From assembly GCF_900129175.1 (NCBI RefSeq), contig NZ_FQUI01000014.1, forward strand, positions 1 through 46,839: 46,839 nt of DNA, in the 5' to 3' direction. Below the pieces are notes generated by a model that was given only the letters and a program-made list of their open reading frames with translations, ran no database searches and was not told where the DNA came from. Origin of the DNA: Marinitoga hydrogenitolerans DSM 16785 (GTDB taxonomy: Bacteria > Thermotogota > Thermotogae > Petrotogales > Petrotogaceae). Shown piece by piece: positions 30,054 to 32,798 of this stretch (within the stretch, counting starts at the first letter, position 1; each line of letters opens with the position of its first letter). Position numbers and translations under genes: made by a program.

Positions 30054-30191
30054 ATTTAGTCTCCTTTTTATTAAATTTTATAATTTATTATAGAATAATT
30101 ATATCATAATTATACATCTAAAATTATTTTTATAACTTATGATATAATATTATTGTTTTTATTATATAAAAATTGTAAGGAGTGATATTGA

Positions 30192-32798
30192 GTGAAAAAA
30201 TATTTAGTGCTATTATTTTTATTTATTTCTTTTATAGTATTTGCTGCAGATTATGATTTAACTGTTAAAATTTTGGAAAATTCAAAGGTTATACTTGGTA
30301 CCATGAAAGTACATCTTTCAGATAATGAGGATCCATATTTTGCCTTATTTCCTAATTTAGAAAGCAAGGATAATCCATATATAAATGCATTGTTTGAATC
30401 AAAGAGGAAATCTAAAATTGAAATTTTAGAAGTTAAAGATGAAAATAATAATTATTTAGATTATACTATAGAAGACTATTCATCAAAAAGATTCAGAGAT
30501 TATCAAATAAAAAATTCACTTTTAAAAGTAAAATCAAAAGAAAAAACATTAATAATAAAATTTAAAACATATTTATTTGATGGAAATGCTCCTGATAATG
30601 TTTTTTTTGATGACATTATAATATGGAGATTTGGATGGTATCCTTTAATATTTGATAGAAATACTGATTATTCACTTTCTTCGCATAATGTATCTATACA
30701 ATTTGAAAATTTGAATAAAAAGTTTATACCTATAATATCAGGAATATATAAAAAAGGGATTTACTACTCATATGGAAAATACAGAACTATGCCTTTAATA
30801 TTAGCAAATAAAAATTCTTATAAAAACCTTACATTAAATACCAAAAATTATGAAATTAATGTATGGTTTAGAAAAGGGCAAGAACAAAGAGCAGCTATTA
30901 TGGCTACACATGTAATAAAAGCTTTAGAATTACATACAAAAGATTTTGGTGAATTAAAATATAAAAAAATAAATATTGTTCAAGATCCATATCCTGGAGT
31001 ATACGGCATGGCTGCTGACGGTATCTTTTTATTAGGAGATGGTTTTTTTACCACAGCTGATTTAGTATTGCCAGGACTATTCGAACCCTTAACTTTTTAT
31101 GTTATTTCTCATGAATTAGCACATATGTGGTTTGGAATAGGTGTAGGTGTGGATTTTGCAAATAATAATTTTATGAGTGAATCCTTAGCTGATTATTCTG
31201 CTCATATCTCTATGTATGAAAAATATGATGATGATAGATTATATAATACATTTCTCCCTGATATTCTGGTTGAAAATATTACAAAAGATATTACAAAGGA
31301 CTTTTCTGAATTGGACCAAGCTGCTATATTCAAATTAGGATATTATAATATTGAAAACGCTATTAAAGATAATATTGATGAAATTCCTGCGAATTTTGCA
31401 TCTTATATATATTATAATAAAGGAAAAAGAGCATTATTCTCCTTAGAAGAATACCTCTCAAGAAAAAAACTATTAAATATATTATCTGAATACTATTATG
31501 AGTATAAAGATAAAAATCCGACTGAAGAGGAATTTTTCGATTTCCTTTCAAAATATGTTGAAAAAGATATATTATATGATTTATTTGAAAATCCAAAAAG
31601 CTTTGATGCTTCTGTAAAGCGTATAAAAGACAAAATAATTATAGATTTAGATAATATGAAAATACCGACAAAAATTAGAATTATCACTGAAGATGGAACA
31701 AAAGAAATTATAACTACTAAAAATATAGAATTAGAGTATGATCCTTCTATTAAAATTGATATTGATCCAGAAATGCATACTTTTGACATTGAAAGGCATA
31801 ATAATCACTTTCCAATACAAATTAGAAATAATTTATTTGATACAGATATTTCTAAATATGATGCATATGGTATAAATATAATTGGAAATTTTGACTATAC
31901 AGAGAATTATTCCTCACAATATTTATCCTTATCTTTTGAAAAATACCCATATTATAATATTGATTTTGGACAATATTCTACTTTTTCAAGTGATTATAAT
32001 TTAGTTGATATGGGATTAACTACTAACTTGAATTTAAATCCTAATCCTTGGATAAACTTAAAACTAAACTATCTGAAAAGTTATTATTTTGATATGCAAG
32101 ATTTAAATGGTAATTTTATGTTATCCATACCAAATGAATTGGATATAGGAGAATCATCAAAAGTTATTGCTTCAACAACACATTTTGGATTTTATGGGCA
32201 ATTTTTGGAGTCTAACAATTATTATTTAAGTCCCTACCTGATATTTGAAAATCTATATAATTTAGGGTTATATTTCGCTGGACAATATTATTTTATGAAC
32301 AGTTTAAATAATTATATTCATGCTTTTTCATTCAATACTGCATATTTTTTCGATAATTACTCTCCAATATTAAACTCATTTAGTATAGAATTAGATTATT
32401 CAAATAACTACGTATTTAATCCATTATATGGAAAAGTTTCTTTAATTAAAGAAAATGATGAATTATTGAATAATTTGAGTTTAGCTAAGCAGATTTTAGG
32501 TATAAACATAGAACTATTAAATTTTTCTGATAATTCTAATAAGAGAATGAATTTCTATAATTTATTTTCTGTTGGAGATATTGATACGACATTAAGTTTA
32601 ATTTATAAAAATGTTGACTTTAATAATCTTTTTGGATTTTCCTTTGTAATTTCACCAGAAATCTATTTTCTTTTAGATCAAAATATTCCTATAAATTTGG
32701 AATTTAATTATTATTACTATCCAAAATCAAATCTATATACAATTACATTTTCACTAAATACAGCATTAGATACTACTATACGAAATATCATAAACTAA
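30192..32798 (+). CDS. Exported M1-like metallopeptidase with predicted C-terminal beta-barrel
   Basis: An 868-residue protein: signal peptide (about 1-18), an M1-type beta-rich N-domain (about 19-215), a gluzincin catalytic domain (about 220-480), a small beta domain (about 490-545), then about 320 residues of alternating, Tyr/Asn/Phe-rich strands (about 545-868) that look like an outer-membrane barrel of 14-16 strands. Zinc ligands His307, His311 (HELAH) and Glu330 (HExxH-x18-E) are intact. The aminopeptidase GxMEN motif is missing; YGMAADG occupies its place, so exopeptidase specificity may differ. GTG 30192 follows AAGGAG. It stands alone between sbcD (divergent) and the Mbx operon. A barrel fused to an M1 domain is unusual. 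Confidence 0.75.
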   Translation: MKKYLVLLFLFISFIVFAADYDLTVKILENSKVILGTMKVHLSDNEDPYFALFPNLESKDNPYINALFESKRKSKIEILEVKDENNNYLDYTIEDYSSKRFRDYQIKNSLLKVKSKEKTLIIKFKTYLFDGNAPDNVFFDDIIIWRFGWYPLIFDRNTDYSLSSHNVSIQFENLNKKFIPIISGIYKKGIYYSYGKYRTMPLILANKNSYKNLTLNTKNYEINVWFRKGQEQRAAIMATHVIKALELHTKDFGELKYKKINIVQDPYPGVYGMAADGIFLLGDGFFTTADLVLPGLFEPLTFYVISHELAHMWFGIGVGVDFANNNFMSESLADYSAHISMYEKYDDDRLYNTFLPDILVENITKDITKDFSELDQAAIFKLGYYNIENAIKDNIDEIPANFASYIYYNKGKRALFSLEEYLSRKKLLNILSEYYYEYKDKNPTEEEFFDFLSKYVEKDILYDLFENPKSFDASVKRIKDKIIIDLDNMKIPTKIRIITEDGTKEIITTKNIELEYDPSIKIDIDPEMHTFDIERHNNHFPIQIRNNLFDTDISKYDAYGINIIGNFDYTENYSSQYLSLSFEKYPYYNIDFGQYSTFSSDYNLVDMGLTTNLNLNPNPWINLKLNYLKSYYFDMQDLNGNFMLSIPNELDIGESSKVIASTTHFGFYGQFLESNNYYLSPYLIFENLYNLGLYFAGQYYFMNSLNNYIHAFSFNTAYFFDNYSPILNSFSIELDYSNNYVFNPLYGKVSLIKENDELLNNLSLAKQILGINIELLNFSDNSNKRMNFYNLFSVGDIDTTLSLIYKNVDFNNLFGFSFVISPEIYFLLDQNIPINLEFNYYYYPKSNLYTITFSLNTALDTTIRNIIN

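Follow-up and report, generated by a model that had tools for sequence, protein, structure and literature searches.

The window analyzed here, a stretch of 46,839 nucleotides from Marinitoga hydrogenitolerans, carries a gene that appears to join an M1-type metallopeptidase to an outer-membrane beta-barrel, which raises the question of what such a protein would be and on which side of the membrane its enzyme would act. The gene lies on the forward strand, as do all features described below, and spans positions 30192 to 32798; its reading frame has exact bounds, starts with GTG and comprises 868 codons (868 amino acids). A ribosome-binding-site-like AAGGAG is located 9 bases 5' of the start codon (30177-30182). 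In the sequence, residues 1 to 19 (30192-30248, ending in FIVFAA) resemble a signal peptide without a lipobox cysteine, and residues 2 to 14 are helical in the structural model. The upstream neighbors, Mre11-like and Rad50-like genes, and the redox genes downstream are encoded on the opposite strand, and the gene thus looks like a single-gene unit. The Mre11/Rad50-like genes adjoin it in this genome (26096-32798), but other Marinitoga share another common position for the gene, so it has moved. No gene neighborhood is conserved across genera, and no retained neighbor points to a substrate. The protein is the only one in the M. hydrogenitolerans genome that matches the M1 profile PF01433, and a sequence search of the same genome found no paralog of the barrel part.

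The catalytic half is readily assigned. Pfam Peptidase_M1 (PF01433) matches residues 302-460 above the Pfam cut-off (E 7e-15), and the HExxH-x18-E zinc site of the M1 family (MEROPS M1) is present. HExxH, with two zinc ligands and the general base E308, occupies residues 307-311 (31110-31124), E330 is the third ligand (31179-31181), and Y408 is the catalytic-type tyrosine of the YxKG motif (31413-31415). In an alignment of 18 full-length homologs, H307, E308, H311, E330, Y408 and K410 are unchanged in every sequence. The zinc ligands that a sequence-only reading of this DNA had described as intact are thus invariant, and this conservation of the catalytic residues argues for a functional zinc peptidase. 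The same reading had noted that the GxMEN exopeptidase motif is absent, and this holds for the whole family. At the corresponding site (residues 271-275, YGMAA; 31002-31016) the homologs read [YFW]-G-[MIL]-[AT]-[AT], and all 18 carry Ala or Thr in place of the amine-binding Glu. The distance from the hydrophobic residue of this site to HExxH is 34 positions, the same as in classical GAMEN proteins. Judged from these residues, exopeptidase action has likely been lost in the Thermotogota family. This is not certain, however, because vertebrate Ap-O, which is classed among the M1 aminopeptidases, is without the GxMEN Glu too; deviations from GxMEN occur in some actinobacterial M1 proteins as well (PMC2241622).

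A full-length AlphaFold2 model, computed from an alignment of the 18 homologs (pLDDT 87.6, pTM 0.87), places M1 domains I to III at residues 20-545, followed by 16 strands at residues 558-854 and a short helix. Model and superposition on PDB structures delimit the N-terminal beta domain I (residues 20-218; 30249-30845), the thermolysin-like catalytic domain II (residues 219-465; 30846-31586), which is also recognized by PF01433, and domain III, a small beta-sandwich linker (residues 466-545; 31587-31826). The best structural match of domains I to III is factor F3 (1z1w; Z 31.8, rmsd 3.1 over 455 residues), followed by ERAP1/2 (Z about 31), and Z values of 27-32 were obtained with many M1 structures. 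The three-domain core, the HExxH-x18-E site, the YxKG tyrosine and domain III are common to the protein and to M1 enzymes such as F3, ERAP1/2, PepN and LTA4H (PF01433). In contrast to the classical enzymes, in which an ARM/HEAT helical domain IV would follow, residues 558-854 are predicted to form strands, so that domain IV is replaced by a predicted membrane barrel in addition to the exchange of the GxMEN Glu for Ala or Thr. The missing ARM-repeat domain had been noticed from the sequence alone.

The predicted barrel (31863-32753) is joined to domain III by a junction with a conserved S..DaY motif in the alignment (residues 546-557; 31827-31862), and in both models the last strand is followed by a C-terminal helix on the M1 side (residues 859-867; 32766-32792). 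Structure prediction of the C-terminal part had been set beforehand as the test between a closed barrel and a series of soluble beta-sandwiches. A model of this part alone again contains 16 strands arranged as a barrel (pLDDT 89.8, pTM 0.78), and the only beta-sandwich in the full model is the small one at 466-545, which is the normal M1 domain III. The soluble beta-sandwich reading was rejected on the strand count and the model. The alternating strands that had been seen in the C-terminal 320 or so residues are also borne out statistically: in/out alternation exceeds that of shuffled sequences in 18 of 18 homologs (z 0.6 to 5.5, mostly above 2), and the N-terminal part shows no such excess. 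A signal peptide and an even-numbered, amphipathic barrel of 16 strands, the features expected of outer-membrane barrels, are thus found together. Fold comparison, amphipathic alternation and the models come from computation, as do the gene, its motifs and their conservation, and they agree on an M1-barrel architecture that is real and well supported.

The fold of the C-terminal half resembles more than one barrel family. The top Foldseek match is BamA (E 8e-4), and FhaC, TamA and Sam50 are also among the best fold matches. In structural alignments, however, the OprD-type porin OpdK (Z 13.8) scores as well as BamA and Sam50 (Z 13.7-14.2). With Z about 14 for both groups, the C-terminal half is predicted to be an outer-membrane-type barrel, close to BamA and Sam50 and to OprD-type porins alike. 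Searches with the C-terminal 320 or so residues against Pfam and PDB sequences gave no match, the barrel profile and that of Marinitoga BamA showed no similarity (0.4%), and no POTRA domain precedes the barrel in the model, where the domain III beta-sandwich comes directly before it. The Pfam profile PF01103 misses BamA in five of seven Marinitoga genomes, although BamA is present in all seven. A negative PF01103 result therefore means little in Marinitoga, and the profile was discarded as an Omp85 test because it overlooks their own BamA. BamA is needed for the insertion of a barrel of this kind, and its presence in 7 of 7 Marinitoga genomes is consistent with such a protein.

The orientation of the enzyme can be approached from the barrel. 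As the barrel has 16 strands, its two termini emerge on the same side of the membrane, here termed the M1 side. Six of the seven M1-side connections show zero length variation across the 18 homologs, and the connections on this side are more conserved than those on the far side (0.530 versus 0.393, p = 6e-4, 18 homologs), as are the corresponding strand halves (0.483 versus 0.412, p = 6e-6). Four barrel residues that are invariant or nearly so (G653, R785, N790 and D829) are all on the M1 side; R785 and N790, both invariant in the alignment, belong to connection 12-13 (residues 781-791; 32532-32564). Indels are found mainly in the far-side loops, above all in loop 11-12, which varies from 12 to 32 residues. 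Several far-side loops of the M. hydrogenitolerans protein have just two residues, however, unlike many long extracellular loops. A conserved, indel-poor face opposite a face of variable loops is the usual contrast between the periplasmic and extracellular sides of outer-membrane barrels. Because the connections on the M1 side are conserved, with almost no indels, and the opposite loops are variable, the M1 peptidase probably faces the periplasm. Superposition of the full model on intact M1 enzymes gave 47 last-aligned barrel residues, of which 45 fell at elements of the M1 side and none at loops of the far side, where about a third each would be expected, although the superposed M1 structures are correlated. 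This distribution is indirect, model-based support for an overlap of the M1-side barrel rim with the space of domain IV.

These results bear on the surface-anchored placement that the sequence-only reading had proposed. A peptidase displayed outside the cell, with the M1 domain passed through or around the barrel as in autotransporters, would agree with the order of signal peptide, N-terminal enzyme and C-terminal barrel, and an amylase and a xylanase of T. maritima are associated with the toga (PMC3387000). However, the classical autotransporter (type Va) has a 12-stranded barrel with a lumenal helix, whereas the model has 16 strands, a short linker and no helix ahead of strand 1. The earlier autotransporter analogy thus stands for the domain order and fails for the barrel type, and an autotransporter was rejected on strand count and model. 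Patatin-barrel proteins were the other comparison: PlpD, a patatin-Omp85 protein (type Vd), likewise combines an N-terminal enzyme with a C-terminal 16-stranded barrel. As a precedent for surface display, however, this analogy has lapsed, because the PlpD enzyme domain, formerly regarded as secreted, was shown in 2024 to be held in the periplasm (PMC11116518). With the conserved, nearly indel-free barrel face on the M1 side as well, surface display appears very unlikely, and a periplasmic position replaces it as the probable one.

Searches for homologs, which had been suggested as a check, detected M1-barrel proteins in 23 of 103 Thermotogota genomes, including every Marinitoga tested; among the same 103 genomes, none was found in other genera of the family Petrotogaceae. 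Among the matches listed in a profile scan of genome contigs, the M. lauensis homolog has 65% identity. In the assembly, its gene is split near codon 60 by a frameshift into pieces of 809 and 63 amino acids, which may reflect a sequencing error or a pseudogene. Scanning the genome contigs with a single protein sequence gave no match. Beyond the phylum, a search of 296 Bacteroidota genomes revealed M1 proteins of 927-1048 amino acids with a C-terminal barrel-like region recognizable by sequence, and a profile built from them retrieved further members that match over almost their full length. Their domain order (for example in L149, L161, L164 and L165) is the same as in the Thermotogota protein, and judging by their sequences the M1-barrel layout is not confined to Thermotogota. 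Most have HExxH, usually together with GGMEYP; the GxMEN Glu is kept in most of the catalytically intact Bacteroidota members but lost in the Thermotogota ones. A Bacteroidota subgroup of about 943-954 amino acids (L155, L158, L162, L163, L171, L189 and L190) has kept both halves and lost HExxH, and likely represents a family of pseudo-peptidase barrels. The Thermotogota and Bacteroidota profiles can be aligned over the M1 part, domain I up to the junction with the barrel (probability 99.9%, E 4e-35), and comparison of the two barrel profiles gave no alignment (0.3%). A phylogeny of the catalytic region unites the Thermotogota proteins in a single clade (support 99) and separates them from the Bacteroidota M1-barrels; the latter cluster with short M1 proteins of their own phylum. 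The simplest reading of these comparisons would be separate M1-barrel fusions in the two phyla, and one ancient fusion common to both may also account for them. In Acidobacteriota, the best matches were short M1 proteins (604-694 amino acids) without a barrel match; a search of Pseudomonadota at E 1e-12, run without a positive control, gave none. Some M1-like proteins of about 1200-1250 amino acids (G113:C12, G226:C1 and G136:C81) match mainly residues 203-351, around and before HExxH, and are probably another M1 fusion.

The function of the protein may be sought in the enzyme or in the barrel. The preferred interpretation, which we consider likely, is an outer-membrane protein composed of a periplasm-facing, three-domain M1 zinc peptidase and a C-terminal 16-stranded membrane barrel. 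From the features above we infer its membrane location, periplasmic side, catalytic activity and substrate. If the barrel instead belonged to the Omp85 superfamily and chiefly assembled or translocated proteins, the M1 domain could be chaperone-like or regulatory. The 16 strands and the presence of BamA, Sam50, FhaC and TamA among the best fold matches would fit such a role, as would the catalytically dead Bacteroidota M1-barrels and the match of one Bacteroidota member to NCBIfam Omp85_fam (E 1e-5). The equal score of the OprD-type porins, the absence of POTRA, the lack of profile similarity to Marinitoga BamA and the invariant catalytic residues of the Thermotogota members speak against it, and we regard it as distinctly unlikely. 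Rather less doubtful, though still not probable, is an outer-membrane quality-control protease that acts next to BamA on stalled or misfolded outer-membrane proteins and not on nutrient peptides. Its active site is predicted to lie in the periplasm at the membrane, the missing GxMEN Glu could permit internal cuts, BamA is the top Foldseek match of the barrel, and a different class of Omp85 fusions has been suggested to take part in proteolytic quality control (PMC4104836). However, the distribution in Thermotogota is patchy and sister genera in the family lack the gene, which would be unusual for a housekeeping function, and no linkage to bamA was seen; in M. hydrogenitolerans, bamA is on a different contig.

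In the preferred interpretation of a periplasm-facing peptidase, the protein would be exported by Sec and its barrel assembled by BamA. The barrel would stand in for the ARM/HEAT domain IV, with its periplasmic rim about where domain IV walls the active-site cleft, and the enzyme would cleave peptides or unfolded segments directly below the outer membrane. With the GxMEN Glu missing, it is not expected to be a standard aminopeptidase acting on free amino termini. Marinitoga ferment peptides, and the most likely role would be to degrade peptides that come in or are present in the periplasm of such an anaerobe, or to clean up envelope proteins. An unlikely extension is that an open channel runs through the barrel and opens on the periplasmic side into the active-site cleft of the M1 domain. 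Peptides would then be cut on entry across the outer membrane, and the channel would replace domain IV, walling the peptidase chamber and filtering what enters it.

Enzyme-barrel outer-membrane proteins are known already. Compared with PlpD, the protein has a metallopeptidase instead of a lipase, lacks the patatin and POTRA domains, and has a barrel that may or may not belong to Omp85. The Omp85 census of Heinz and Lithgow, according to which early phyla such as Thermotogae often have one BamA as their only Omp85 protein, includes an 'Omp85-metalloprotease' class defined by PF00149 (PMC4104836). This class also combines a metalloenzyme domain with a 16-stranded barrel without POTRA, but its domain is not M1, and PF00149 is in Pfam a calcineurin-like phosphoesterase and not a peptidase. 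Searches of the open-access literature turned up no account of an M1-barrel protein, and no match in Pfam or NCBIfam covers both halves, so that the earlier impression of an architecture without a named family agrees with these searches. Few fusions of an enzyme with an outer-membrane barrel are known, and the one studied, PlpD, is a lipase. The walling of an M1 active site by a membrane barrel in place of helical repeats may have evolved on more than one occasion, in two phyla and from apparently separate M1 lineages. Very few toga proteins have been identified in Thermotogota, and the M1-barrel protein therefore offers a concrete, testable candidate for an outer-membrane enzyme in this phylum.
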